Positions 26,104-47,279 of a stretch of 64,000 nucleotides of DNA are shown piece by piece. Source of the DNA: Planctomycetota bacterium (GTDB taxonomy: Bacteria; Planctomycetota; UBA1135; JADKAF01); NCBI GenBank assembly GCA_016793245.1, contig JAEUHW010000260.1, positions 1 to 64,000 on the forward strand, given 5' to 3'. Position 1 is the first letter of the stretch, and the number at the start of each line of letters is the position of its first letter. A program made the position numbers and the translations under genes. A model generated the notes under the pieces. It made no database searches, was not told the DNA's origin, and was given only the letters and a program-made list of their open reading frames with translations.

Positions 26104-26904
26104 ATGGATCTTGCGATCGCGCAGTTCGAACCCTGTCTCGGCCGATCCCGAGAGACCGAGCGGCGCCTGGAGGAGCTCCTGCCCGCGGCGCGCGGCGCCG
26201 ACCTCCTCGTGCTGCCCGAGCTCGCCAACTCCGGCTACGCCTTCGCCTCGCGAGAGCAGGCAAAAGAGTGCAGCGAGCTCGCCGATGGCGCAGGTCCGTT
26301 CCAACGCTTCCTGCGCGAAGCGTGCCGCCGCTACGAGATCGGCGCCATCGCGACCGGACTCTGCGAGCGCGCTGGTGAGACGCTCTACAACTCGGCCGTG
26401 CTCCTCGACGAGCGGCGCGGCGTCTTCGGCCTCTATCGGAAGCTCCACCTCTTCGACACCGAGAAGCTCGTCTTCGAGCCCGGCGACCTCGGGCTCCCGC
26501 TCTTCGAGCACCGCGGCGCGAAGCTCGGGTTGCTGATCTGCTTCGATTGGTTCTTCCCCGAGGTATGGCGCGCCTTGGCACTCGACGGCGCCGATCTGAT
26601 CGTGCATCCCTCGAATCTCGTGCTCCCCGGGCGCTGCCAGCGCGGCGTCCCCGTGCACGCGATGATCAACCGCTTGTTCATCGCGACGGCGAATCGCATC
26701 GGCACCGAGGGTAGCCTGCGCTTCACCGGCGAATCGCTGATCGTCGATCCGCGCGGCGAGGTGCTCGCGAAGGCCTCCGCGGAGCGCGGCGAGGTGCTGC
26801 GCGTCTCGATCGATCCCGCGCAAGCGCGGGAGAAGCGCGTGACGGCGCGGAACGATGCGCTGGGCGATCGACGACCCGAGCACTACTCGCGGCTCGTGCG
26901 CTGA
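26104..26904 (+). CDS. carbon-nitrogen hydrolase (nitrilase superfamily)
   Basis: A 266-residue cytoplasmic amidase of the nitrilase superfamily with the full catalytic triad: E39 in VLPELANSG, K113 in YRKLHLF, and C146 in LLICFDWFFPE. Length and the closing segment ESLIVDPRGEVLAKA fit the family. ATG 26104 has GGAG seven bases upstream; the in-frame ATG at 26038 adds a basic tail and is less likely. Substrate is not fixed by sequence; omega-amidase or N-carbamoyl-type amidase activity is possible. Its 3' end overlaps the convergent CPBP gene by 22 bases. Confidence 0.88.
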   Translation: MDLAIAQFEPCLGRSRETERRLEELLPAARGADLLVLPELANSGYAFASREQAKECSELADGAGPFQRFLREACRRYEIGAIATGLCERAGETLYNSAVLLDERRGVFGLYRKLHLFDTEKLVFEPGDLGLPLFEHRGAKLGLLICFDWFFPEVWRALALDGADLIVHPSNLVLPGRCQRGVPVHAMINRLFIATANRIGTEGSLRFTGESLIVDPRGEVLAKASAERGEVLRVSIDPAQAREKRVTARNDALGDRRPEHYSRLVR

Positions 26905-27782
26905 TCGGGCTCGGGTCCGGGCGGCTCGGGCAGCGATTGCAGGACGCTCTTCGCGCGGAAGAAGCCGAGCACGCCGAGCACGAGCAGGGCGGTCGAGGTC
27001 ACCGGCAGCCAGGTCGGGATCTCCTCGGGCTTCGAGGGATCGAAGCCCGACTGCGAGATCGCGAGCCCGAATCCGGCGCCGACGAGATTGTTGGTGAAGT
27101 GGCACCACATCGCCGGCACGAGCGAGTTCGTGCGCCAGCACACCCAGCCGAGCCACCACGCCAGCGGCACGAGCAGGACGGCGTAGCTCGGGTCGGGGTG
27201 CGCGAACGCGAAGAGCAGCGCGGACATCGTGATCGCGAAGGCCGGCGCGTACGCGCGCAGCATTCCGCGCAGCACGAAGCCGCGGAAGAGGCCCTCCTCG
27301 ATCAGCGCCGGCAGCACCGACATCAAGATCACGAGCACGATCGCCGCCGCGAGACCGGCGTTCGCGATGCCGCCGTGCAGCGCGTCCGAGTACTCCTCGC
27401 CGCTGCCGAAGATCGGCACCAGGAAGAAGCCGGAGATCAGCTTCACGCCGAGGGTTCCCAGGGCGAGCGGGATCCAGAGGCCGTGGTTCCAGCGTTCTCG
27501 ATCGAGGCGGAGGCCCAAGCGCAATCGCGGCGGCTCTCCGGCGTGCCAGATCGCGAGCGCGAGCACGATCGCGAACGCGCCCTGCCCCAGCAGGATCGCG
27601 ACGAAGAACCCGGGCGTCGTGGCGAAGAACGCTTCCGCGGCCTCGGCCGGATGCGTATCGGTGCCGCGCGCGAGGTAGAGGCCGATCGCGTGCAGCGCGA
27701 TCTGCGCGAGCAGCATCGCGATCGGGATCGACAGGAACCCGATCGCGAGGGCGGTGGAGGCGCTTCTTCGAGACTCGCTCAT
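26883..27782 (-). CDS. CPBP-family intramembrane metalloprotease
   Basis: A 299-residue integral-membrane protein of the CPBP (CAAX protease and bacteriocin-processing, Abi) family. The three signatures appear in order: EEGLFRGFVLRGML (EExxxR), LLFAFAHPDPS (FxxxH) and WCHFTNNLVG (HxxxN). ATG 27782 starts just before the first helix (LAIGFLSIPIAMLLAQIAL). The C-terminus carries a final helix and a short acidic tail. In other bacteria these proteases process small peptides or regulate membrane signalling; no obvious substrate gene lies next to it. It overlaps the 3' end of the amidase gene. Confidence 0.88.
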   Translation of the reverse strand: MSESRRSASTALAIGFLSIPIAMLLAQIALHAIGLYLARGTDTHPAEAAEAFFATTPGFFVAILLGQGAFAIVLALAIWHAGEPPRLRLGLRLDRERWNHGLWIPLALGTLGVKLISGFFLVPIFGSGEEYSDALHGGIANAGLAAAIVLVILMSVLPALIEEGLFRGFVLRGMLRAYAPAFAITMSALLFAFAHPDPSYAVLLVPLAWWLGWVCWRTNSLVPAMWCHFTNNLVGAGFGLAISQSGFDPSKPEEIPTWLPVTSTALLVLGVLGFFRAKSVLQSLPEPPGPEPDQRTSRE

Positions 27783-27852
27783 GTGCGCGGATGGTCGTCC
27801 GGTGCGCGGCGCCGCGCAAGCGCGCGGCGCCGTGAAGAAGCGCGCGCGGCGC

Positions 27853-29016
27853 TCATTGCAGCACGAAGCGCACGCCGTTCGAGCCGACGATGCCCGCCGA
27901 GTTCGCACCGACATCGCCGATCAAGAGCGCCTGGAGATGCCCCGATTGGCCCGGAACGCCAGGGCCGCCAGGAATGGCGACGGTGAAGCCCGCGCGCGTG
28001 CCGCTGTTCGGCACCGTGGCGACGGCGTACTCGGAGGTCGTGTGCAGGAAGCAGCCGTTCGCGCCGAGGAAGTCGAGCGGAACGCCGAGCTGCTGGAAAC
28101 CGAAGAAGAAGATCGCCGGAGCGGTGACGCTGCTGCCGAGAGTCACCGCGATCGTGAGCGCACGTCCGCCGGTGGGGCAGTCGCTGAGATCCAGTCGCGG
28201 CGCTTGCCCGCTCGAATCGTTGCACGGCGCCCCGAAGCGCGTCGCCGAGCCGCTGCAGGGCGGAACGATGCCCGCGACTTCGTACACGCGGCGCGTGATG
28301 AAGCCGTCGCCGATGAACAGCGAGCCGCTGCGCGTATCGATGCCCAAGCCCTCCGGGCTGATGCCGAGCCCGGCGAGCGGAATGTTGCGCACGAGGGTGC
28401 CCTGTCGATCGAGCTCGAGGACGAAGTCGCCGGTGTCTTCGCCGAGATAGAAGCGGCGGAGGATCGGGTTGTACGCGAGGCCGTCGGCGTCCGCGCTTCC
28501 CGCGGCGCCGATCGGGATCGACTGCACCGCGACGCCCGTGAGCGTGAACTCGCCGATCGCGCGCGTGCCGCTGTCCTGCGAGACGAAGAGGTGGCGCGTC
28601 TCGGGATCGAACGCGAGGCCGGAGGCATCGACGATGGTGGGCGTCGTGCGGAAGTTCACGCCGGTGAGCGTGCCATCGACGCGCATCTCGTAGACCACCT
28701 CGGCTTCGTCGACGACCCAGAGGTTGCCCGTCACCGGATCCACGGCGGCGCCGATGGGGAGGGGATTCGCCGTCGTGCCCGGAGGGATGGGGGCGGGGAA
28801 GGTCGCGAGCAGGTTCCCCGCGCGGTCGAAGCGCTGGATCAGGTCGTTGGTCTGGTCGACGGTCCAGAGCGTGTCGTTGATGGGGTCGTAGTCCACGCCC
28901 CCGACGAAGGACGTGCCGAGGGGCGGCACGTCGAATTGGTTCACGATGGTCGGGGTCTGCCCCGCGGCGGCTGCGAGCAGCGTGCCGAGGGCGAGGAGCG
29001 GAAGGATCTGGCGCAT
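27853..29016 (-). CDS. secreted beta-propeller protein (NHL/SdiA-regulated-like)
   Basis: A 387-residue exported protein. ATG 29016 gives the signal peptide (LLAAAAG|QTPT). Residues about 35-250 contain repeated propeller blades with D-x-x-(T/S)-(G/R)-x-L-(W/F)-V motifs (VDPVTGNLWVVDE, FDPETRHLFVSQD, YNPILRRFYLGED, IDTRSGSLFIGDG), like SdiA-regulated or esterase-like propellers. A second domain of about 120 residues follows (CSGSATRFGAPC to GHLQALLIGDVG, ending VGSNGVRFVLQ), matching the C-terminal module of other secreted proteins here. Divergent from the sigma-fusion gene, 207 bases apart. Ligand unknown. Confidence 0.75.
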   Translation of the reverse strand: MRQILPLLALGTLLAAAAGQTPTIVNQFDVPPLGTSFVGGVDYDPINDTLWTVDQTNDLIQRFDRAGNLLATFPAPIPPGTTANPLPIGAAVDPVTGNLWVVDEAEVVYEMRVDGTLTGVNFRTTPTIVDASGLAFDPETRHLFVSQDSGTRAIGEFTLTGVAVQSIPIGAAGSADADGLAYNPILRRFYLGEDTGDFVLELDRQGTLVRNIPLAGLGISPEGLGIDTRSGSLFIGDGFITRRVYEVAGIVPPCSGSATRFGAPCNDSSGQAPRLDLSDCPTGGRALTIAVTLGSSVTAPAIFFFGFQQLGVPLDFLGANGCFLHTTSEYAVATVPNSGTRAGFTVAIPGGPGVPGQSGHLQALLIGDVGANSAGIVGSNGVRFVLQ

Positions 29017-29223
29017 GGACCTGAGTGGGAAGGGCGGGTTGGGGAGGCGCCAAGTGGACCTGGCGAGGCCGATCCTCACCCGCGCGCTGGGTTCTGCCCA
29101 TACCCGAAAGCTCCTCCGCGGTTCTGCGATCCACGGGCGAGCGCGTACCCTTGGATTCGGATTCGCCTGAACCGCGCCGCTTCGCTCCGGGCAGGGGAGG
29201 GCGATCCCCGACCAGGCAACCCC

Positions 29224-32200
29224 ATGGACCGACCGGCCGCACCACTCGATCCGGACCTACTGCACCGCCATGCGCCCGGGCTCCGCGCGCTCGTGCGGAC
29301 CTTGGTCCTCGACGACAGCCGCGTCGACGACATCGTGCAGGAGACCTGGCTCGCGGCGCTGAAGCGCCCGCCCCAGCAGACCGAGAAGGCCGGCGCCTGG
29401 CTGGCGGTGGTCGCGCGTCGCATCGTGCAGCGCGGGAAGCGCGAGCGCGCGCGCCGCGCCCAGCGCGAGGAGCGCGCCGCGAAGCCGGAAGGGCTGCCGT
29501 CGGCGCAGGAGATCGTCGCGCGCGAGATGGCGCGCCGCGAGCTGGTCGACGTGGTGCTCGAGCTCGACGAGCCGTATCGCACGACGGTGCTGCTGCGCTA
29601 CTTCGAGGACCTGGGGCCGCAGGAGATCGCCGAGCGCTTGGAGGCGCCGCTCGAGACGGTGCGCACGCGCTTGAAGCGCGGCTTGGAGCGCCTCCGCGAG
29701 AAGCTCGATCGCAAGAACGGCGGGAACACGCGCGCTTGGCATCTCGCCTTGCTGCCGCTCGCGAACCTGCCGCTCGGCCCGTTCGCGCCGCTGCCCGCGC
29801 CGAGCGGGGGCGAAGGCGCGCTCGCGGGTGCCGGGAGCTCGTCGCCCGCGTGGCTCGGCGCCGGCGCGATCGCCGCGGGCGCCGCGGTGCTGGGCGCCGC
29901 CGCGCTGGGCTGGGCGTTGCTCCGCGGCGGCGCGGACTCCGGCGACAGCGCCGGGGAAGCGGTCGCGCTGGCACCTCTCGCGTCCGACGGCGCCTCGAAC
30001 GCGGCGCACGCCTCCGTGGCGCGCGAGACGAGCGCGAACGACGCCGCGACGCTGCTCCCCTTCGCGCTGCGCGAGCGCGCGACCGCGGCCCCTCTCGCGG
30101 CGATCGAGGTCGGCGCCTCCAGCGGTCCGTGGGCCGCGTTCGAGACCCTGGGCTGGGTGCGGCGGAGCTTCGAACGCGAGGAGGAGAACCCAGCACCCGC
30201 GCTCTCGCGCTCGCTCGGCGCGAGCGATGCGAACGGGCGCCTCTCGGTGCCGCGCGACGAAGCCGAGCGCTTCCCGTTCGTCCTCGATCCGCATTGGTCG
30301 CCGGTGCTCCCGCCCGAGAGCTTCGGCGCGGCGCGCGAGCTCGTGCTGGAACCCGCGGGTGTACTGCGCGGGCGCGTCCGCGCGGTCGGCGCCGCCGCGC
30401 AGCGCGCGATCGGCTCGGGTACCGCGATCGCCCGCCTCGTGCCGCTCGGGACGCGCGACGGTCGGCTGCACCTCGGCTTCTGGGATGCGCTGCGCGGGGC
30501 GCGCGGCGTCGCCGTGGCCCGCGATGGCGGGTTCCGCTTCGACTCGCTGCCGCTCGCGCTCGCGTATCGGCTGGAGGTCTACGCTCCCGGTGCGGGCCTC
30601 GCCGTGCGCGAGCGCATCGAGCTCTCCGCTCCCGGCGCGATGCCGGTCTCTGGCGATGCCGAGCTCGAGCTCACGTGGGATGCCGCGGGCGCGCGCGTCG
30701 AGGGCTTCGTCGGCGGCGCCGAGGGCTTCCCGATCGAAGGAGCGCGCCTCGCGCTGCACCACCTCGGCAGCTCGCGCGACGGCGTCGCCGCGGAGCGCGG
30801 GCGCGGGGACGCGCCGTTCGGTCCGCTCGAGCTGGACGCGATCGCGCGCCAGCGCGCGGACGACTCCGGGACTTTCGCCTTCGAGAACCTGCCCGACGGG
30901 CGCTACCGCCTCGAGGTGCGCGCCGACGGCTGCGAACCCGCGCAGCGCATCTTCGACATCGAGGCCGGCGCGGCAGAGCCGCTCGCGCTGCGACTCGAGC
31001 TCGGCGCCGCGCTGGAAGGGGTCGTCCGCGATGCCGCGGGCGCTCCGGTCGAGGGCGCGCTCGCGTTCGCGCTCACGCGCGCCGGCGACGCCCCCGTGCG
31101 CACCGACGCCGAAGGGCGTTTCCGTTTCCGCGAGCTCGGCGCGGGCGCGATCGAAGTGCTGGCGCGCGGCGCCGGCGGGATCGCCATGCAGCGCTTGGAG
31201 CTCCTCCGCGGCGAGGTCGGCTGGGTCGAGCTCGCGCTGGCGCCGCGCGCGCCGCGCGAGGCCGAGCGCGGTGGCGTCGCGCGAGAGCCCGCGCGCGAGA
31301 CGGTCGATCTCCGCGCGCGCCTCGTCGAGCGCGGCAGTTCGCGCCGCATCGTCGGCGCGCTCGTCGAAGTCGACCACGGTCGCGGGCGCGGCGCTGGTCG
31401 TGGCGACGGCGGCCCCGTCTTCGGCTCTCGGCCGCGCGCCGCGCTCAGCGACGCCGAGGGCGAGCTGCTCCTCGCGGGGCTCCGCGTCGGCCGCGCTCAG
31501 GTGCGCGTGCAGCGCGAGGGCTACGGCGAAGTCAGCTTCGAGCTCGAGCTCGCCCCCGGTGGCGAGGTGCAGGTGCTCGAGCTCGCGCCGGCGGCGCAGC
31601 TCGCCGGCGTCCTCCGCGATCGGAGCGGCGCGCCGCTCGCCGCTCGCATGGTCCTCGCGCGCGGGAACGGGGCGCGCGTCGCGGCGACCGACGCCGAAGG
31701 GCGCTTCGCCTTCGTCGACCTCGCCCCGGGGACCTGGTCTCTCGGCGTCCCCGGACCGAACTCGGTCGCGGCCCTGGAGCGCGGGATCGCCGCTCTCCTG
31801 CAGCTCGAGCTCGCGCCGGGAGCCGACGAGCGCTGCACGCTCGAGGTCGATCCTCTGCCCGAAGGGCGCGTCGAGCTGGTGCTCCAGAGCCAGCTCGCGA
31901 CGGCCGCGGCGCTCGAGCTCCGCGGCGTCGGAGCCCCGCTCGACGAGATCGAGCGACGGGGTCGCGTCGCGACCGGCGAGGCGGCGCGCTTCGCGGCGCT
32001 GCCTCCGGGGCGCTATCGGTTGATGGCGCGCACCGAAGATGGCGTGCTGCATCTGCGGGAGCTGGAGCTCGAGGGAGCCCTCGTCGAGATCGCCCTCGCG
32101 ACCGATGCCGCTCGACCGCTCGTGGCGCAGGGTCCTGCGGGGGTCGCGCTCGAGTTGCTCCATGCGGGCTTCGCGGAGACCAGGCCCAGCGGCGAGCGCC

Positions 32201-32472
32201 GCGAACGAGGCGGACGAGGTCCAGGGGCCTCGAAGGGGCGGCGGAGCGAAGCGCCTCGCGCGGTGGTGGTCGGTTCGGGGAGCTGGACCTTGGAGCTCGT
32301 CGCCCGCGACGAGAGCGGGCAGCTCTATCGCGGCCAGGTCTCGGTGAGCAGCGGCGAGGCTTCGCCGGCGCTCGCCGGTTCGACGCTCACGGCCGAGCTC
32401 GCGCCCTGGACCCCCGAGGTCCCGCCGAGCGCACCCGCCGCTGGCGAGCGGCGCGAAAAAGCCCGCCGCTGA
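29224..32472 (+). CDS. ECF sigma factor fused to a membrane helix and extracytoplasmic repeat region
   Basis: A 1082-residue fusion. Residues about 15-75 are sigma region 2 (DDSRVDDIVQETWLAALKRP) and 105-160 sigma region 4 with its helix-turn-helix (LGPQEIAERLEAPLETVRTRLKRGLERLR). After a proline-rich linker, residues about 211-234 form one hydrophobic helix (AWLGAGAIAAGAAVLGAAALGWALL). The remaining ~840 residues are carboxypeptidase-regulatory-like beta-sandwich repeats (GTFAFENLPDGRYRLEVRADG, GRFRFRELGAGAIEVLARG), as in the next gene. The likely topology is sigma inside, repeats outside. ATG 29224 is chosen because upstream frame lacks coding character. Release of the sigma part would need proteolysis. 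Confidence 0.8.
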   Translation: MDRPAAPLDPDLLHRHAPGLRALVRTLVLDDSRVDDIVQETWLAALKRPPQQTEKAGAWLAVVARRIVQRGKRERARRAQREERAAKPEGLPSAQEIVAREMARRELVDVVLELDEPYRTTVLLRYFEDLGPQEIAERLEAPLETVRTRLKRGLERLREKLDRKNGGNTRAWHLALLPLANLPLGPFAPLPAPSGGEGALAGAGSSSPAWLGAGAIAAGAAVLGAAALGWALLRGGADSGDSAGEAVALAPLASDGASNAAHASVARETSANDAATLLPFALRERATAAPLAAIEVGASSGPWAAFETLGWVRRSFEREEENPAPALSRSLGASDANGRLSVPRDEAERFPFVLDPHWSPVLPPESFGAARELVLEPAGVLRGRVRAVGAAAQRAIGSGTAIARLVPLGTRDGRLHLGFWDALRGARGVAVARDGGFRFDSLPLALAYRLEVYAPGAGLAVRERIELSAPGAMPVSGDAELELTWDAAGARVEGFVGGAEGFPIEGARLALHHLGSSRDGVAAERGRGDAPFGPLELDAIARQRADDSGTFAFENLPDGRYRLEVRADGCEPAQRIFDIEAGAAEPLALRLELGAALEGVVRDAAGAPVEGALAFALTRAGDAPVRTDAEGRFRFRELGAGAIEVLARGAGGIAMQRLELLRGEVGWVELALAPRAPREAERGGVAREPARETVDLRARLVERGSSRRIVGALVEVDHGRGRGAGRGDGGPVFGSRPRAALSDAEGELLLAGLRVGRAQVRVQREGYGEVSFELELAPGGEVQVLELAPAAQLAGVLRDRSGAPLAARMVLARGNGARVAATDAEGRFAFVDLAPGTWSLGVPGPNSVAALERGIAALLQLELAPGADERCTLEVDPLPEGRVELVLQSQLATAAALELRGVGAPLDEIERRGRVATGEAARFAALPPGRYRLMARTEDGVLHLRELELEGALVEIALATDAARPLVAQGPAGVALELLHAGFAETRPSGERRERGGRGPGASKGRRSEAPRAVVVGSGSWTLELVARDESGQLYRGQVSVSSGEASPALAGSTLTAELAPWTPEVPPSAPAAGERREKARR

Positions 32473-32581: not shown

Positions 32582-35500
32582 ATGCGCCCCCTGCACTTCC
32601 TCGCCGGCGCGGCCGGTCTCGCCGCGGTCCTCGCGGTCGCCGTCTTCGTCCTGAGCGATGACTCCTCGGGTGAGGGAGAGCTCACGGGTGCCGCGCGCGA
32701 GCGCGGCGGCCTCGCTCCGCTCGTCGCCGGCGAAGGCGCCGCCGACGGCGGTCTGCGCGCGGAAGCCAACGTGCTGCGCGGCAGCGGCGCGAGCGCGGAG
32801 CTCTTGGCTCCGGACGCGTCGCGCGCCGGTCGCGCCTCGAGCGGGCGCGTCGTTCGCGACCGCGACGGCGTCGGCGTGCCGAACCTCGCGCTGCGCCTCT
32901 CGACGCAGCATCCGCTCCGCGCGCAGCTCCGCGGCTGGAACCTGCGCAGCGAGATGCTCGGACGCTTCGTGCCCGGACTCGACGATGCGCTGAAGGCGAA
33001 GGGCTCGGCCGGCTTCGGCGAGCTCGCCAAGGTGCGCACCGACGACGGCGGGCGCTTCGCGGTGCCCGGCGATCACGAAGGCTGGTTCGTCAGCATCGAC
33101 GATCCCTTCTACTACCTCGTGCGCACCTCCGAGCCGATCTTCGGCCGTCGCGAGGAAGTGCTCGAGGTCGCCCTCGGCGGGCGCATCGCCGGCAAGGTCG
33201 CGCTGCCCGAGAAGCCGCAGAAGCCCGCGCTCGCGCTGCTCTCCTCCAGCGGCGGCGGCGGCGATTTCTTCGGCGGCCGCGGCGGTCGCGGCGGCGGACC
33301 GTTCCGCCAAGGCGGCTTCGATCCGAGCCAGATGATGCGCGGCGCCGAGCTCGATGCCGAGGGCGCTTTCGCCTTCGATGGCCTGCCGGCGGGCGAGGGC
33401 TCGCGCTACCAGGTATGGATCGTGGCGCCCGGCATCTCGACCTTCGCGGCGCCGCCGGTCGACGTGCAGCCCGGCGTCGAGCAGCGCGTCGATCTCGCGC
33501 TCGATCCCGGCATCGAGGTGCGCGGCCTGGTGCGCGATCGCTCCGGCGCGCCGATCCGCAACGCGCAGGTGCGCATCGCCTACGAAGGTCCGGCCTCCGA
33601 GCCGGAGGCCGCGGGCGGCGAGCGCGGCGGTCGCAACGAAGGCGGCCGCGGCGGTCGCGGTGGACGCGGCGAGAACGCGCCAAGCGATTTCGGCGGCCGC
33701 GGCGGCTTCGGCGGCTTCACGCGCATGCTCGCCACGGCGGAGAGCTTCCTCGAAGCGACGACCGATGCGTCGGGCGTGTTCGTGCTGCGCGGCCTCGGCG
33801 ACGGCGCGTATCGCGGCGAGTTCGTCGCCGCCGGCTACGTGCCCCAGATGGACAAGCGCTTCCAAGTGCGCTTCGGCAGCCACGACGAGCTCGCGATCGA
33901 GCTCGATCCCGCGCGCCGCATCGAAGGCTTCGTGAAGCTCGCCGACGGGCGCGCCGTGGCGGGCGCCGTGGTCACCGCCAGCGAAGTTCGCGAAGCCGAG
34001 GAGAACCTGGGCTTCGACTTCGCCAGCATGGCGGGACCGGGCGGCGACGGCGGTCGCGGCGGCATGATGCGCGATCTCTTCCGCGGCATGGGCCAGCGCG
34101 TGCCGCAAGCGGTGAGCGACGGGCGCGGGCGTTTCGAGATGCTCGACGTTCCGGCCTCGTGGAAGATCGCGCGCCTCGATGCTGAGACCGAGACGGGTCT
34201 GCGCGGCGGCAAGGAGCTCGGAGCGGCCGTCGCCGGTCAGCCCGACGTGGTCGAGCTGCTCGTCGCGCCGACGGCGAGCATCGTCGCCGAGCTCGCGTAT
34301 CCGGAAGGCAGCGCGCCGTCCGAGCAAGTGACGCTCTCGCTGCTCGGCGGCGAGATGCCCTTCCCGCAGCGCACCGAGAAGTTCACCTGGCCCGCGTCGC
34401 GCGTGGCCCTCGTCGACGTCGCGCCGGGCGAGTACACGCTGCTCGTGCAGGCGAAGGGCTTCGCCTCCGCGAGCGTCGACGTCGTCGTCGAGCAACCGGG
34501 CGCCGCGACCGAGGTCCTCGTCGCCCTGCGTCCGGGCGCCGAGATCCGCGGCCTCGCGGTCGAGAGCGTGGGCTCGCGGCCGATCGGCGGCGCGGAGATC
34601 ACGGTGGAGTTCGACTTCGGTGCGCTGCGCGATGGCGGCGGACGCGACGCGGGGATGCGCGATCAGCTCCGCAACCTGCGCTTCAACGCGCGCACCGATG
34701 ATCTCGGGCGCTTCGTCATCGCCGATCTCGCCGCGGGCAAGATCACGCTCCGCGGCGAGCATCCGGAATTCCCGAGCGGTCAGGGGGCTGCCACCGAGCT
34801 GAAGGAAGGCCAGATCGTCGAGGACTACCGCGTCGTCTTCACGCCGGGCGGCATCGTGACGGGCACCGTGGTCGATGCGCAGGGCGCGCCGCGCGAAGGC
34901 GCGACGGTGCTCGCGAGCATCGCGGGTTCCGGCGGCGGCGGCGGTCGTGGCGGTCGCGGCGGCTTCGGCGGCGGGCGACCCGCGCGCACCGATGCCAGCG
35001 GGCGCTATCGCATCGATCGCCTGCAGCCCGGCGAGTACATGGTCGCGCTCTCGAACGGCGGCGGCGGCGGTCGCGGCGGCGGAGAGATCGTCGGCAGCAC
35101 GAAGACCGTGCAGGTGCAGCCCGGCCAGACCGTCGTCGTCGACTTCGACGCCTCGGACGAGCCGCTCGCGAGCTTGGTCGGCACCTTGAAGCGAGGGGAC
35201 TCCGTCGTGCGCGGCGGGACCGCGCGCCTCACCGTCTCGGGCGGCGGTCGCATGTTGAGCGCGCGCATCGGCGAGGACGGCAGCTTCCGCTTCGACGAGC
35301 TGCCGCTCGGCACGCATCGTCTGAGCTTCCAGGTCGCGAGCGCCGACGAGACCAGCGGCGAAGGGCGCGGGCGTCGCGCGAACCGCGGCCCGAGCGGTGG
35401 CGGCGCCGGCGTGGAAGTCGCGTTGGAACAAGCCGGTGAGACGCAGCGCGAGTTCACCTTGCCCGGCGGGCGTATCGCGGGCCGCGTGAGCGCGCCGAGC

Positions 35501-36370
35501 GCCAACCTGCGCAACGTGCGAGTGCGCTTGCTCGCGGTCGAGTCCTCGGGCGCGGGTCGCGAAGTCTCGAGCGCGCAGGTCGATCGCGACACGGGTGCCT
35601 TCGCGTTCGAGAGCCTGGAGCCGGGGCTCTATCGCTTGGTCGCCGAGCCACCGCGTGGCGGCAACGGCGGTCCGGGTGGTCGCAACGCGCGCGGCGGAGC
35701 CGAAGGTGAACCGGCGCCGGCCGCAGCCGAGGTGCTCGGCGCCGTGTCGCAGGACGTCGAGCTCGCGGCCGACGCCTCGCGCGATGGACTCGAGCTCGCG
35801 TTCGTCGCGGGCGGCACGCTCGTCTTCAAGGTCGTCGACGATCAGGGACAGCCTGTGCCGAACGCGCGCGTCACGCTGCAGGGCAGCGAAGGTGCGACGC
35901 GCTCGATCGAGCAGTCCGGCGGCGGCGATCGCGAAGGTGCCGGGCGCGTCGAAGGTCTCGCCGCCGGGCTCTACGACGCGCGCATCACCGCGCGCGGCTT
36001 CGCCACGACGGCCGGCGGCTCGGTCGCGATCGCGGCGGGCGCCGAGGTCGAGCGCACCTTCCGCGTCGCGCGCGGCGTCGCGTTCTCGATCGAGATCGTC
36101 GACGCGGAGGGCAAGCCGGTCCCCGATGCGCGCATCGAAGTGCGCGGGGATGGCGACGAGCTCCTCGGGACCTTCCCTTCGCAAGGTGGCGGCCGCGGCG
36201 GCTTCAGCAGCGGCGGACGCCAGCTCGACGGCATCTACGCGCTGGGCTCCTACCCCGAGGGACGCTACCGTCTGGTGGTCGCTCGCGGCGCGTCGAGCAG
36301 CCAGCAATCGTTCACGGTGCGCCACGCCGATGGCGCGCGCGCCCGCGTTTCTCTCTCGAAGGATGCGTGA
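32582..36370 (+). CDS. membrane-anchored carboxypeptidase-regulatory-like repeat protein with RGG-type inserts
   Basis: A 1262-residue protein with an N-terminal signal anchor (HFLAGAAGLAAVLAVAVFVLS) and then eight or more carboxypeptidase-regulatory-like/CNA-B-type repeats, each with a G-x-F/Y-x-F-x-x-L-x-x-G-x-Y pattern (GAFAFDGLPAGEGSRYQVW, GVFVLRGLGDGAYRGEF, GAFAFESLEPGLYRLVAEP). Several loops carry low-complexity glycine/arginine inserts of GGRGGRGG type near residues 220-240, 340-375, 780-800, 820-830, 1025-1045 and 1200-1210. It starts 109 bases after the sigma-fusion gene and repeats the same fold, so a partnership is plausible. Surface scaffold or binding role is inferred. Confidence 0.75.
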   Translation: MRPLHFLAGAAGLAAVLAVAVFVLSDDSSGEGELTGAARERGGLAPLVAGEGAADGGLRAEANVLRGSGASAELLAPDASRAGRASSGRVVRDRDGVGVPNLALRLSTQHPLRAQLRGWNLRSEMLGRFVPGLDDALKAKGSAGFGELAKVRTDDGGRFAVPGDHEGWFVSIDDPFYYLVRTSEPIFGRREEVLEVALGGRIAGKVALPEKPQKPALALLSSSGGGGDFFGGRGGRGGGPFRQGGFDPSQMMRGAELDAEGAFAFDGLPAGEGSRYQVWIVAPGISTFAAPPVDVQPGVEQRVDLALDPGIEVRGLVRDRSGAPIRNAQVRIAYEGPASEPEAAGGERGGRNEGGRGGRGGRGENAPSDFGGRGGFGGFTRMLATAESFLEATTDASGVFVLRGLGDGAYRGEFVAAGYVPQMDKRFQVRFGSHDELAIELDPARRIEGFVKLADGRAVAGAVVTASEVREAEENLGFDFASMAGPGGDGGRGGMMRDLFRGMGQRVPQAVSDGRGRFEMLDVPASWKIARLDAETETGLRGGKELGAAVAGQPDVVELLVAPTASIVAELAYPEGSAPSEQVTLSLLGGEMPFPQRTEKFTWPASRVALVDVAPGEYTLLVQAKGFASASVDVVVEQPGAATEVLVALRPGAEIRGLAVESVGSRPIGGAEITVEFDFGALRDGGGRDAGMRDQLRNLRFNARTDDLGRFVIADLAAGKITLRGEHPEFPSGQGAATELKEGQIVEDYRVVFTPGGIVTGTVVDAQGAPREGATVLASIAGSGGGGGRGGRGGFGGGRPARTDASGRYRIDRLQPGEYMVALSNGGGGGRGGGEIVGSTKTVQVQPGQTVVVDFDASDEPLASLVGTLKRGDSVVRGGTARLTVSGGGRMLSARIGEDGSFRFDELPLGTHRLSFQVASADETSGEGRGRRANRGPSGGGAGVEVALEQAGETQREFTLPGGRIAGRVSAPSANLRNVRVRLLAVESSGAGREVSSAQVDRDTGAFAFESLEPGLYRLVAEPPRGGNGGPGGRNARGGAEGEPAPAAAEVLGAVSQDVELAADASRDGLELAFVAGGTLVFKVVDDQGQPVPNARVTLQGSEGATRSIEQSGGGDREGAGRVEGLAAGLYDARITARGFATTAGGSVAIAAGAEVERTFRVARGVAFSIEIVDAEGKPVPDARIEVRGDGDELLGTFPSQGGGRGGFSSGGRQLDGIYALGSYPEGRYRLVVARGASSSQQSFTVRHADGARARVSLSKDA

Positions 36371-36457: not shown

Positions 36458-37585
36458 ATGAAGACCCGCGCGTTGCTGCTCACGCTGGCGCTGCCCAGCT
36501 TGGCCTTGGCCCAAGAACACACCGTCCAGACCCCGGCGCAGAAGGGCAAGGCCCTGCGCACGAAGATCGAGAGCTCGTCGGAGTCGTCGACCTCGATGAC
36601 GATGACGATCAACGGCGAGGAGCGCGGCGGTGGCGGCGGTGACCGCACGACCAGCGCGAAGCAGACCATCGAGTTCGACGAGACGGTCCTCGACGCGAAC
36701 GACAAGGGAATCGCCACGAAGGTCCAGCGCACCTACACCAAGCTCTCCGGCTCGATGACGATGCCGGGCCGCGACGGCGAGGAGATGGAGACCGAGATCG
36801 AGGGCGCGCTCGAAGGGAAGAAGCTCTTCCTCGCGCAGGACGGCGACAAGGTCGTCGCGCACGAGAACGACGAGGATGGCGCCGCGTTGGAAGAGCGCCT
36901 CGCGCGCGGCCTGAAGGTCCGCACCGACGTGATGGGTCTCCTGCCGGAGAAGGCCGTCGCCGTGGGCGCTGAGTACGATCTCAGCAAGACGCTGCGCAGC
37001 GCGATGGCGAACCTGCAGCACCCGATGGCGCGCGCCGCGCAGGGTGAAGAAGGCGCGGACGCCGCCGGCGGTGGTCGCGGCGGACGCGGCGGTCGCGGCC
37101 AGGGCGGCTTCGGCGGCCGCATGGGTGGCGGCATGCAGGGCAACGAAGGCCTGGGCTATCTCATGAACGAGAAGCTGACGCTCGAAGCGAACGGCAAGCT
37201 CGAGGGCGTGTCCGAAGGGCTCGCCACGATCTCGTTCAAGGCGAAGGCCTCGGGCGAAGGCAATCCGACCGAGCTCGGCGTCGGCATGGCCGGCGGCATG
37301 GGCGGTCGTGGCGGTCGCGGTGGTCGCGGCGGCGAGCAGGGTGGTCAGGCTCCCGCGGTCGAAGGCACGGCGAACGTCGAGTGCACGGTCGAGGGCAAGC
37401 TCGTCGTCGATCTCGCGAAGAAGTGCATCGTCAGCTTGGAGCTCGAAGGCGAGTTCGAGATGGACTCCGAGACGAGCATGACGCGCGAAGGCCGCGACGG
37501 TGAGTCGATGGACATCGAGACCTCGATGGAGCGCAGCGGCTCCTTCAACCTGAAGGTCGCGGTGAGCGAAGCGAAGAGCGAGTGA
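36458..37585 (+). CDS. secreted RGG-rich protein of unknown family
   Basis: A 375-residue exported protein with a strong signal peptide (LPSLALA|QEHTV). The mature part is acidic and rich in Thr, Ser, Met, Glu and Gly. Residues about 203-228 and 280-300 are glycine/arginine repeats (GGRGGRGGRGQGGFGG; GGRGGRGGRGGEQGG) of the same kind as in the preceding gene. The flanking segments are beta-rich (TIEFDETVLDANDKGIATKV, NVECTVEGKLVVDLAKK). I do not recognise the family. It follows the large repeat protein by 87 bases and ends before a strong terminator, so both may share a transcript. Confidence 0.7.
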   Translation: MKTRALLLTLALPSLALAQEHTVQTPAQKGKALRTKIESSSESSTSMTMTINGEERGGGGGDRTTSAKQTIEFDETVLDANDKGIATKVQRTYTKLSGSMTMPGRDGEEMETEIEGALEGKKLFLAQDGDKVVAHENDEDGAALEERLARGLKVRTDVMGLLPEKAVAVGAEYDLSKTLRSAMANLQHPMARAAQGEEGADAAGGGRGGRGGRGQGGFGGRMGGGMQGNEGLGYLMNEKLTLEANGKLEGVSEGLATISFKAKASGEGNPTELGVGMAGGMGGRGGRGGRGGEQGGQAPAVEGTANVECTVEGKLVVDLAKKCIVSLELEGEFEMDSETSMTREGRDGESMDIETSMERSGSFNLKVAVSEAKSE

Positions 37586-40268: not shown

Positions 40269-41777
40269 ATGCGCAGCATCCTCGCTCTGCTCCTTGGTGT
40301 CTGCGGTGCGCTCGCGGCGCAAGAGCCGACGGCGCCGCCGCCGAACTTGATCGTCTTCCTCGTCGACGATCTCGGCTGGCAGGACGCGAGCTACGCGTTC
40401 CACTCCGAGCGCACGATCTGGAACGAGCGCTATCGAACGCCGGCGCTCGAGGCGCTCGCCGCGAGCGGCGTCGCCTTCACGCAAGCGTACGCGCATTGCG
40501 TCTGCTCGCCGACGCGCGTGAGCTTGATGACGGGCCTCCATCCCGCGCGCCATCGCGTGACCAACTGGATCCTGCGGAGGGACACGCCGACCGACGGCGC
40601 GCACCCGACGCTCGCGATGCCGGAGTGGAACGTGAACGGGCTCAGCGACGATCCCGCGACGCCGCGCGCGCTCTGCGTGGAGACGCTCCCGCGGCTCCTG
40701 CAGCGCGCGGGCTACGCGACGATCCACGTCGGCAAGGCGCATTGGGGCGCGATCGGCACGCCCGGCTCCGACCCGCGTCGCCTGGGCTTCGACGTGAACG
40801 TCGCGGGTCACGCGGCGGGCGCTCCCGCGAGCTATCTCGCGCGCGAGAACTTCGCCGATCCGAAGCGACCCGAGCGCGTCTGGGACGTGCCGGGCCTCGA
40901 GCCTTACCACGGCTCCGAGCGCTTCCTCTCCGATGTGCTCACCGAGGAGGCGCTCCGCGAGATCGATCGCGCGCTCGCGCAGCGGAAGCCCTTCTTCCTG
41001 CACTTCGCGCACTACGCGGTGCATACGCCGTTCTCCGCCGACGCGCGCTTCATCGCGCGCTACCGCGAGCAGGGCTTGGACGAGAAGGAAGCGCAGTACG
41101 CGGCGCTGATCGAAGGCGTCGACGACTCGCTCGGGAAGCTCCTCGCGCATCTCGAGGCGCGCGGCATCGCCGAGCGCACCGCGATCGCGTTCCTCTCCGA
41201 CAACGGCGGTCTCAGCGCGAACAGCCGCGGCGGCGAGGCGCACACGCACAACCGCCCGCTCGCGAGCGGCAAGGGCTCTTCGCGCGAAGGTGGCCTGCGC
41301 ATCCCTCTCGTCGTGCGCTGGCCGGGTGTGGCGCCGCGCGGGGAACGCTGCGCGCATCCCGTGATCGTCGAGGACCTCTTCGCGACCTTGCTCGAGATCG
41401 CCGGTGCTGCTCCCGAGGAACGTCGCTCGCGCGACGCGCGCTCGTTCGCTCCCTCGCTGCGGGAGCCCCAGAGCATTGCATCAGAGCGCACGCTCGTCTG
41501 GCACTACCCGCACGTCTGGGGTCCTAAGGGCCCGGGCATTGGCCCTTACTCGGCGCTGCGCCGCGGCGATTGGAAGCTCGTCTACGACCACGCGACGCAG
41601 AGGCTCGAGCTCTTCGATCTCGTGCGCGACCTCGGCGAAGCGCGCGATCTCTCCGCCAGCGATCCCGAGCGAACGCAGGCGCTCGCGCGCGAGCTCGGCG
41701 CGGCGCTCTCCAACCTCGGAGCTCAGATGCCGCAGCGCCGCGAGGGCGGAGCTGCGGTGCCCTTTCCGGGAACCTGA
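40269..41777 (+). CDS. secreted sulfatase (arylsulfatase family)
   Basis: A 502-residue exported sulfatase. The signal peptide ends GALAA|QEP. Metal-binding VDDLGWQD lies at about 32-39, and the formylglycine signature C79-S-P-T-R83 is intact (CSPTRVSLMTG), so C79 should be converted by a formylglycine-generating enzyme. FLSDNGG near residue 315 gives further metal ligands. Planctomycetes use many such enzymes on marine polysaccharides, but the substrate here is not determined. The start codon sits two bases after palindrome copy 3, without a visible Shine-Dalgarno. No carbohydrate-active neighbours are seen. Confidence 0.9.
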   Translation: MRSILALLLGVCGALAAQEPTAPPPNLIVFLVDDLGWQDASYAFHSERTIWNERYRTPALEALAASGVAFTQAYAHCVCSPTRVSLMTGLHPARHRVTNWILRRDTPTDGAHPTLAMPEWNVNGLSDDPATPRALCVETLPRLLQRAGYATIHVGKAHWGAIGTPGSDPRRLGFDVNVAGHAAGAPASYLARENFADPKRPERVWDVPGLEPYHGSERFLSDVLTEEALREIDRALAQRKPFFLHFAHYAVHTPFSADARFIARYREQGLDEKEAQYAALIEGVDDSLGKLLAHLEARGIAERTAIAFLSDNGGLSANSRGGEAHTHNRPLASGKGSSREGGLRIPLVVRWPGVAPRGERCAHPVIVEDLFATLLEIAGAAPEERRSRDARSFAPSLREPQSIASERTLVWHYPHVWGPKGPGIGPYSALRRGDWKLVYDHATQRLELFDLVRDLGEARDLSASDPERTQALARELGAALSNLGAQMPQRREGGAAVPFPGT

Positions 41778-44567: not shown

Positions 44568-47279
44568 ATGGATGACTCCTGGGAACGATTGAAGACCGTC
44601 GCCGGCGACGCCTTGGAGCAGCCGCCGGCCGTGCGCGAGGCGTTCTTGCGCGCCGCCTGCGGCGAAGATGCCGACTTGTTCGCGGAGGCCTGCGCGCTGC
44701 TCGCCGCCGACGCCGACGCCGGTGACTTCCTCCGCTCGGAAGCCGAGCTTCCGCCCTCGGTCCGCAGGTTGGAGCGCGGAGCGACGGTCGGGCCCTATGT
44801 CATCGAAGAGCTCTTGGGCGAAGGGGGATCGAGCGAGGTGTATCGCGCGCGCCAAGCGGCTCCGATCCAGCGCGAGGTCGCGCTGAAGCTCCTGAAGCCC
44901 GGCATGGACTCGCGCGCGCTGCTGACGCGCTTCGCCGCGGAGCGCCAGACGCTCGCGCGTCTCGATCACCCGCACGTCACGCGCGTGTTGGATGCCGGTG
45001 CGCTCGAGAGCGGTCGGCCGTGGGTCGTGGTCGAGCTCGTGCAGGGGCTGCCGCTGACGCGCTTCGTCGCCCGCGAGAACCTGACGCTGCAGGCGCGGCT
45101 CGAGCTCTTCCTGCAGGTGTGCGATGCGGTGGCCCACGCGCATCGGCGGGGCGTCGTGCACCGCGACCTGAAGCCCGCCAACGTGCTCGTCTCGCGCTCC
45201 GAGGGCGCGCCGTGGGCCAAGGTCATCGACTTCGGCATCGCCAAGCTGCTGGAGTCGAGCGATGCAGGAGCTCCGCTCACGACCACCGGGATCCTGCTCG
45301 GAACGCCGGCGTACGCCAGCCCGGAGCAGCTCGACGAGCAGGGCGACGTCGATACGCGCACCGATGTGTGGTCTCTCGGGGTGATCCTCTACGAGCTGCT
45401 GACCGATTCGCGCCCGACCGATGGCAGCGATGGTCAGGAGCCTTCCATCGCGGAGCTCGTGCGCCGCGTGCGCAACGATGCGATCGAGCCGCCGTCGCGA
45501 CGGCGGCGCCGGAGGGCTCGCGAGACCCTGCGGATCGAGCTCGACTGGATCGTCGGCCACGCCCTCGAGCGCGATCGCGAGCGCCGCTATCCGACCGTCG
45601 ATGCTCTCGCCTTCGACGTGCGCCGTTTCCTCGCGCGCGAGCCGCTGAGCGTCGGGCCGCCGACCCTGCGCTACCGCATCGCGACGGCGGCGCGGCGGCA
45701 TCGCGCGCTCCTCGGCGCTGCCGCGTTCGCCATCCTCGCGTTGCTCGCCGGCAGCGTGGCTTCGTTCGTGGGCTTGCTCAGCGCACGCACCGCCAGGGAC
45801 GAGGCGAAGGTTGCGGCGAAGGCGGAACGCGTGCAGCGAACCCTCGCGGAGGAGCTCGCCGAGAGTCATCGCCGCGCGCGCGCGGACGCGGAAGCTGCGC
45901 TCGCGGAAGCGAGCGCGGTCGGCGAGTTCCTCTCCGATCTCTTGCTCGCCGTGGAACCGTCCAAGGCCGGACGCGAGGTGCGCGTCGTCGATGTGCTCGG
46001 CGTGATCGAGCCGCGCTTCGCGTCCGTGGCGGCCTTCCCCGTCGTCGCCGCTCGTCTCCGGCGCATCATCGCGCAGTGCTATCTCGGGCTCGGAGATTTC
46101 ACGGCGGCGGAGCCGCATCTGATGATCGCGCTCGAGCTCGGTCGCGAGCACTTCGCCGCGGACGATTGGCGCTACGTCGACATGCTCTCGATCCTCGCCG
46201 ATCTACGCGCGCGGCAGGGCCGCTTCACGGAGCTGGAACCCGTACTGGAGGAGCTCGACTCCCGTGCGCGCGCCTCCAAGGGACCGGAGCACCCGCTCGC
46301 GCGCTTCGTCCTCGATCTGCGGGCGAAGATCGCCTTCGATCGCGGTCGCCCGGCCGAGGCCGCCGCCGCGCTGCGAGGCCTGCTCGCGCTCGATGAGGCC
46401 GCGGGGCGCACGAAGGCGGTCCTGCAGACGCACGGGAATCTCTCGCAGATCTTGCTGACTCTCGGACAGAGTGAGGAAGCGCGCACGCACGCCGAGCGCG
46501 CCTATTCGATGGCTCGCGAGGACTATGGCGAAGATCATCCCCTCGCGATCGCCGCCGCGCGCAAGCTCGCCGCGGTGCATCTCCATCGGGGGGAATACGA
46601 CGCCCTCATCGCAGCGCTCGAGCCGCTCGTAGAGAAGGCCCGCGCCGTGCTCGGTCCCAAGAACCCGGATACGCTGGGCATCGAGAACTACCTCGCGCGC
46701 GGCTATCAGAAGACGCAGCGTCTGGAGGAAGCGGAGGCCCTGTACCGGCGCATCATCGCCACGCAGGCCGAAGCGATGAGCAAGGAGCATCCGCAGGCGG
46801 TGATGGCGGTCCAGAGCTTCGGCCAAGTGCTCGAGGCGCGGGGCGACCTCGCCGGAGCCGAAGAGGCGTTGCGCGACGTGGTACAGCGTTTCCGCTCGCT
46901 CCGCGGGGGCGATCATGCCGACACGTGGTACGCGCTCGCCTCGCTCTCGCGCGTGATGACGAGTCGCGGACGCTGCCTGGAGGCGGCGGAGCCCTTCGCC
47001 TCGGCGATCGACGGGCTGCAGCGCACGCTCGGGCCGGACAACCCGCGCACGATCGAAGCGCGCTCGGCTTGGGTGACGCATCTGCTGCGGCTCGGCGCCG
47101 TGCAGCGCGAGCAGCGGGCGCTCGCGGACGCACGCTCGTCCTGGGAGCGCGCGTTCGAGCTCGGAGGGGAGCTCGGCCAGGAAGATGCAAAACGAGAGGC
47201 CGCCGGGGCCCTGGGGGCGCTGGCGGAGGCCGAGGGCGATGCGGCAAGTGCGCAGCGCTGGCGCGAGCTGGCGCGCTGA
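44568..47279 (+). CDS. transmembrane Ser/Thr protein kinase with C-terminal TPRs
   Basis: A 903-residue Hanks-type kinase. Residues about 75-340 hold the kinase domain: glycine loop LGEGGSSEVYRA, catalytic lysine in VALKLL, catalytic loop VVHRDLKPANV near 198, DFGIA near 220, and TPAYASPEQ in the activation segment, so all key residues are present. One membrane helix lies near 378-405 (LLGAAAFAILALLAGSVASFVG). The outer ~480 residues carry TPR-like repeats (ARTHAERAYSMAREDYGEDHPLA, KNPDTLGIENYLARGYQKTQRLEEAEALY) of the kinesin-light-chain type. Paired with the divergent ECF sigma factor, a set-up common in planctomycetes. Signal and targets unknown. Confidence 0.9.
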   Translation: MDDSWERLKTVAGDALEQPPAVREAFLRAACGEDADLFAEACALLAADADAGDFLRSEAELPPSVRRLERGATVGPYVIEELLGEGGSSEVYRARQAAPIQREVALKLLKPGMDSRALLTRFAAERQTLARLDHPHVTRVLDAGALESGRPWVVVELVQGLPLTRFVARENLTLQARLELFLQVCDAVAHAHRRGVVHRDLKPANVLVSRSEGAPWAKVIDFGIAKLLESSDAGAPLTTTGILLGTPAYASPEQLDEQGDVDTRTDVWSLGVILYELLTDSRPTDGSDGQEPSIAELVRRVRNDAIEPPSRRRRRRARETLRIELDWIVGHALERDRERRYPTVDALAFDVRRFLAREPLSVGPPTLRYRIATAARRHRALLGAAAFAILALLAGSVASFVGLLSARTARDEAKVAAKAERVQRTLAEELAESHRRARADAEAALAEASAVGEFLSDLLLAVEPSKAGREVRVVDVLGVIEPRFASVAAFPVVAARLRRIIAQCYLGLGDFTAAEPHLMIALELGREHFAADDWRYVDMLSILADLRARQGRFTELEPVLEELDSRARASKGPEHPLARFVLDLRAKIAFDRGRPAEAAAALRGLLALDEAAGRTKAVLQTHGNLSQILLTLGQSEEARTHAERAYSMAREDYGEDHPLAIAAARKLAAVHLHRGEYDALIAALEPLVEKARAVLGPKNPDTLGIENYLARGYQKTQRLEEAEALYRRIIATQAEAMSKEHPQAVMAVQSFGQVLEARGDLAGAEEALRDVVQRFRSLRGGDHADTWYALASLSRVMTSRGRCLEAAEPFASAIDGLQRTLGPDNPRTIEARSAWVTHLLRLGAVQREQRALADARSSWERAFELGGELGQEDAKREAAGALGALAEAEGDAASAQRWRELAR

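Follow-up and report, generated by a model that had tools for sequence, protein, structure and literature searches.

What keeps an ECF sigma factor in check when its own chain runs on through a membrane helix into a long outer region? This question is raised by a gene on the forward strand at positions 29224–32472 of the window, i.e., the whole 64,000-nucleotide stretch of planctomycete DNA analysed here. According to the original prediction, such an arrangement could sense the envelope directly and release the sigma factor by proteolysis, replacing the usual anti-sigma factor.

Domain organization of the gene 29224–32472

The gene is translated without a stop in a single frame into a protein of 1082 amino acids that, according to the translation, Pfam matches and an AlphaFold2 model, consists of an ECF sigma factor, a linker, a membrane helix and an outer rod. 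Sigma-70 region 2 (PF04542, Sigma70_r2, 1.4e-8) covers residues 12–78 (positions 29257–29457), and sigma-70 region 4 (PF08281, Sigma70_r4_2, 1.2e-11) covers residues 105–157 (29536–29694), with only 26 residues between the two matches. Pfam yields no other sigma match in this protein; it thus has regions 2 and 4 and neither region 3 nor region 1.1, as in ECF sigma factors (sigma-70 group 4). The N-terminal part scores 65.3 bits against the ECF superfamily model TIGR02937 (cut-off 42.9), with no narrower ECF group model above its cut-off among the NCBIfam matches listed for this part, and its solved ECF relatives are SigW, SigK, and SigL.

Upstream of 29224, the frame stays open back to 27754; the family alignment supports 29224 as the start of the gene, and positions 27853–29079 on the opposite strand belong to a gene of their own, which has a Pfam match. 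Long open frames arise by chance in G+C-rich DNA. Here, a chance frame or a frameshift artefact is excluded, because the frame carries the Pfam matches and the same genome holds 22 further paralogues in long stop-free frames.

Directly behind sigma region 4, at residues ~165–180 (29716–29763), the alignment of N-termini reveals the family motif W..aL.PLa, where the AlphaFold2 model has a short helix (residues 169–175) and where Trp172 is retained in 92% of family members; as a guess, this motif could form an inhibitory contact. In the family, it is followed by a variable stretch and then, often, by GalaMktK just ahead of the membrane helix. In the window protein, residues 184–217 of the linker are disordered in the model, Pfam detects no domain in the stretch that separates sigma region 4 from the helix (residues ~160–210), and the linker contains no cysteine. 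The single membrane-spanning helix occupies residues 213–234 (29860–29925) in the AlphaFold2 model, with the hydropathy peak at residues 215–233. The protein presumably has its N-terminus inside and its C-terminus outside, as the arginine-rich, basic sigma side must face inside.

The outer region of ~848 residues (29926–32469) is a series of tandem beta domains with the CarboxypepD_reg/pilin CnaB-like fold, as indicated by Pfam, AlphaFold2, and Foldseek. The CarboxypepD_reg domain is repeated (1.6e-40), its best match falling on residues 492–591 (30697–30996). Foldseek retrieved only pilin and CnaB-type rods for this region, with low whole-model TM-scores, and gave no hint of ligand binding. 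The AlphaFold2 model, built from 44 family rows, is of moderate overall confidence (pLDDT 68, pTM 0.40), its sigma part being confidently predicted and the region beyond the helix forming beta-strand domains. These limits agree closely with the original prediction, which had placed the sigma regions at about residues 15–160, the helix at 211–234 and an outer region of 840 residues with repeat domains; a frameshift separating two genes, which would have refuted it, is not present.

A planctomycete family among tethered and extended ECF sigma factors

A search with the sigma part as the query (E below 1e-15) identified 23 family matches in the same genome, nearly all of them in long stop-free frames. 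The family is carried by 104 out of 154 genomes of the same class and by 60 out of 294 genomes in a phylum-wide sample of Planctomycetota, with up to 55 matches detected per genome. A hydrophobic helix after sigma region 4 is present in 183 of the 194 members examined, i.e., in 147 out of 154 members of one set, where it had to lie at most 80 residues past region 4, and in 36 out of 40 members from other classes. Among 44 whole members scanned with Pfam, sigma regions 2 and 4 are each found in all 44, and CarboxypepD_reg in 42. Thus, the orthologue survey envisaged for the fusion returned relatives that almost always keep the parts together, and the architecture, its spread and its conservation are evident from the sequences themselves.

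Split pairs, with sigma factor and rod in separate genes, were not encountered among the short members that were read, these being contig ends, one frameshifted member (L220), soluble sigma factors (L102, L213–L215) and sigma-plus-helix proteins without a rod (L103, L219). In L220, the sigma part and the anchored rod are in different frames, with the break, an assembly error or a real one, within the linker. The soluble proteins (e.g., L102 4574–5230, reverse strand) are short ECF sigma factors without a helix, ending in ...REAAWIRSGRV, and sit upstream of a tethered member in four related genomes, possibly as a paired sigma system. The proteins without the outer rod (L103 8476–9210, forward strand; L219, frame 1) consist of sigma and membrane helix, and the GVLGMK motif is still present in one of them.

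The sigma parts of members are often less than 50% identical, and the best-conserved part of the family is its sigma motifs, with Asp36, Gln39, Trp59, Arg119, Arg149, Arg152, and Arg158 retained in at least 90% of members. This conservation, together with the sigma fold predicted with high confidence by AlphaFold2, makes it hardly credible that the sigma part is degenerate and inactive, a cytoplasmic remnant on what is now a surface rod.

Tethered ECFs and long extensions are already known as kinds (PMC8999054, PMC8103513). In IutY of Pseudomonas putida (ECF243), which acts in cell-surface signalling for iron uptake, the sigma factor is fused to a membrane anti-sigma domain and is freed by regulated proteolysis (PMC8999054). 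The window protein resembles IutY in having a membrane helix and an outside part C-terminal to the sigma factor; unlike IutY, it has no anti-sigma Pfam domain, and its outside part is a long beta-domain rod. A C-terminal extension with a membrane helix and an outside region is likewise found in actinobacterial SCO4117 and groups ECF48, ECF52, and ECF53, for which proteolysis has been proposed (PMC8999054). These proteins possess a zinc-finger-like anti-sigma segment and extensions of up to ~400 residues, whereas the window protein has a linker without cysteine and an extension of ~900 residues, and belongs to a planctomycete family. Hence, it shares with tethered ECFs of the IutY/ECF52 type the same-chain helix C-terminal to sigma region 4, and has neither an anti-sigma domain, according to Pfam, nor, in the absence of linker cysteines, a zinc finger between sigma and helix.

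Large C-terminal extensions are also a feature of other planctomycete ECFs and of ECF57, with Singulisphaera as a representative (PMC8999054). ECF57 is set apart by its description, which gives WD40-like repeats and a cysteine pair; in the window protein and 44 members, Pfam gives no WD40-like repeats and instead the CarboxypepD_reg domains of the rods. None of the papers searched describes an ECF combined with CarboxypepD_reg, and the family may already be numbered in the ECF classification. The combination of folds for which the original prediction had no name is thus real and yet no single curiosity: the window gene is, by sequence, a member of a large planctomycete family, and tethered ECFs offer precedents (PMC8999054).

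Internal starts at the membrane-helix boundary

In many members, a Shine–Dalgarno (SD) motif followed by an in-frame start lies at the boundary of the membrane helix. The combination is present in 83 out of 188 members, against 21.3 expected and a maximum of 31 in 200 shuffles, with the expectation obtained by shuffling synonymous codons within each gene, so that the protein is kept and the DNA alone is tested; since members are related, these counts are not independent. The same count in the +1 and +2 frames is five and one, respectively, near expectation, and control windows in the outer region show no excess. The excess amounts to 59 out of 149 vs. 16.2 expected in the first-found set and to 12 out of 23 vs. 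2.9 in the window's own genome. The region definition was derived from the first set, and hence particular weight falls on the later set from other classes, where the signal is replicated at the same thresholds (24 out of 40 vs. 5.8 expected).

The details resemble those of a genuine start. An in-frame ATG precedes the helix in 76 out of 126 members (16% expected), and the glycine at position –4 is encoded by GGA in 37 out of 44 cases, compared with 15 out of 110 at other methionines (Fisher test, 1e-16). Lys or Arg occurs within seven residues after the internal start in 81 of the 83 cases, as in an anchor or signal segment. The internal site carries the SD motif in 44% of members and thus resembles a real gene start, as ordinary starts in these genomes and loci carry it in ~24–26%.

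It has been proposed that ribosomes pause at SD-like motifs close to membrane segments, and the motif might accordingly be a ribosome-pausing signal that aids membrane insertion rather than part of a start. This is very improbable, as a GGAG-type motif is found 8 nt before the in-frame start in 31 out of 100 cases, compared with 3% of control ATGs, and the SD excess is confined to members with an in-frame start (106 vs. 57.9 expected), members without one having seven motifs against 7.3 expected.

Another explanation is that a sigma gene became fused to a downstream gene for an anchored rod, the internal start being a relic and full-length tethered sigma the only product made today. The sequence at the internal start, M-x-K-x-K followed by a hydrophobic helix, has exactly the look of an anchored secreted protein's N-terminus, and stand-alone anchored-rod genes do lie directly downstream of four members (the window gene, L104, L178, and L169). 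A relic, however, should decay, whereas the signal has been kept against synonymous drift in several classes, among members with sigma parts often less than half identical, and its SD frequency is at least that of ordinary starts; we therefore regard this explanation as unlikely, with some chance left to it. On a weakly supported tree, the internal-start trait needs ~55 changes, which points to easy gain or loss, or else to imperfect scoring.

Taken together, the codon-level evidence indicates that the internal start is under selection at the nucleotide level across the family. Given the excess of SD plus start over shuffles and none out of frame, many of the genes probably make two proteins, a tethered sigma factor and an anchored rod without sigma. 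Bacterial two-start genes that yield N-terminal proteoforms likewise have an internal SD and start and a shorter product in the same frame; here, the predicted short product would drop the whole sigma domain and keep anchor and rod, a pattern that extends over a family of paralogues in one phylum. A limited literature search found no published description of this two-start feature.

The window copy itself has neither SD nor start at the corresponding site (29812–29868, forward strand), and the same holds for its closest homologue, at locus L104, with which it groups in the tree with 98% local support; in L259, the relative that comes next, the internal start is present. Downstream of the window gene (32582–36370, forward strand) lies a gene for a protein of 1262 amino acids with an N-terminal hydrophobic anchor and CarboxypepD_reg repeats (eight stretches) and without a sigma part. 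A similar anchored CarboxypepD_reg gene is in the same place at L104 (10513–13548), overlapping the stop of the sigma gene, and no such gene was found within 2.5 kb downstream at L259. A general rule by which a downstream rod gene takes the place of the internal start in members that lack it was not significant (4 out of 50 vs. 0 out of 31, p = 0.29).

Several other genes lie near the window gene. A sulfatase (40269–41777; PF00884, 2.6e-42) has a 36% identical homologue at the L104 locus and, being common to both loci, suggests that the tethered sigma factor may serve the use of sulfated polysaccharides. A 375-amino-acid protein without a Pfam match (36458–37585) has a homologue in L104 that precedes the sigma gene there, and a serine/threonine kinase with TPR repeats is encoded at 44568–47279.

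Proposed mechanism and its meaning for sigma-factor control

We propose, with a probability of about 0.5, that the gene encodes a one-gene transmembrane sensor whose tethered sigma factor is freed by proteolysis, many family members having two starts. The C-terminal membrane helix would hold the ECF sigma factor on the inner side of the cytoplasmic membrane, with the long beta rod outside, and this tethering would keep sigma from acting. A signal or the binding of a putative ligand on the rod would cause the protein to be cut, either on the outside or within the membrane, the latter by an RseP-type site-2 protease, and the freed sigma part would then direct transcription, so that the window protein would sense the envelope. 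Where a member has a further ribosome-binding site and start immediately ahead of the helix, as many do, the rod would additionally be made with its anchor but without sigma, and this shorter product could join the full-length sensor in an assembly, compete with it or damp it; for the window copy, the adjacent downstream gene would supply the rod-only product.

In favour of this proposal, sigma regions 2 and 4, a single helix and the outer domains are all encoded in one frame. Against inhibition by tethering stands the lack of an anti-sigma-like domain ahead of the helix, which makes location the sole apparent inhibitor. Similarly, the resemblance of the outer domains to adhesive rods, and not to a known ligand pocket, speaks against a sensor, and the missing internal start in the window's own copy against the two-start part.

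An overlooked anti-sigma gene next door was rejected, as no anti-sigma family occurs among the first 25 families listed for 39 downstream and 38 upstream neighbours of members, where rods, FG-GAP, PMT_2, and related models were seen twice. For the cleavage step, the genome encodes a Peptidase_M50 gene with a two-half match in one 967-amino-acid open frame, as in RseP-type proteases. The original interpretation is thus partly supported: the lack of an anti-sigma neighbour is consistent with the claim that the arrangement replaces the usual anti-sigma factor, with sensing and proteolytic release as its inferred parts. A CPBP/Rce1-like intramembrane protease is encoded two genes upstream (26883–27914, reverse strand); it was rejected as a dedicated partner, being on the other strand, two genes off, and without a match in the L104 locus.

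Membrane-anchored DNA-binding regulators of the ToxR/CadC type are established, and a tethered sigma factor might, without being cut, work at the membrane in the same manner, recruiting RNA polymerase when the rod changes state. Cleavage in this family is indeed deduced rather than observed. Still, we consider this quite improbable, since initiation requires that sigma engage core polymerase, and since cleavage is what activates the tethered ECFs studied so far (IutY; PMC8999054). Release by proteolysis, as proposed here, has precedent in IutY, which Prc and RseP cut, and in SCO4117 (PMC8999054).

A recent review counts the control of ECF sigma factors that lack a visible anti-sigma partner among the open questions (PMC8103513). 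Tentatively, and at somewhat less than even odds, the family may represent phylum-wide one-gene envelope sensors, in which a tethered sigma factor is tuned by a sigma-less rod from the conserved internal start, and copies without this start can use an adjoining rod gene. With outer region, anchor and sigma factor in one chain, and as many as 55 copies detected in a genome, such sensors would give a direct answer to this question for a large share of these sigma factors, and the internal start predicts two products from one gene.
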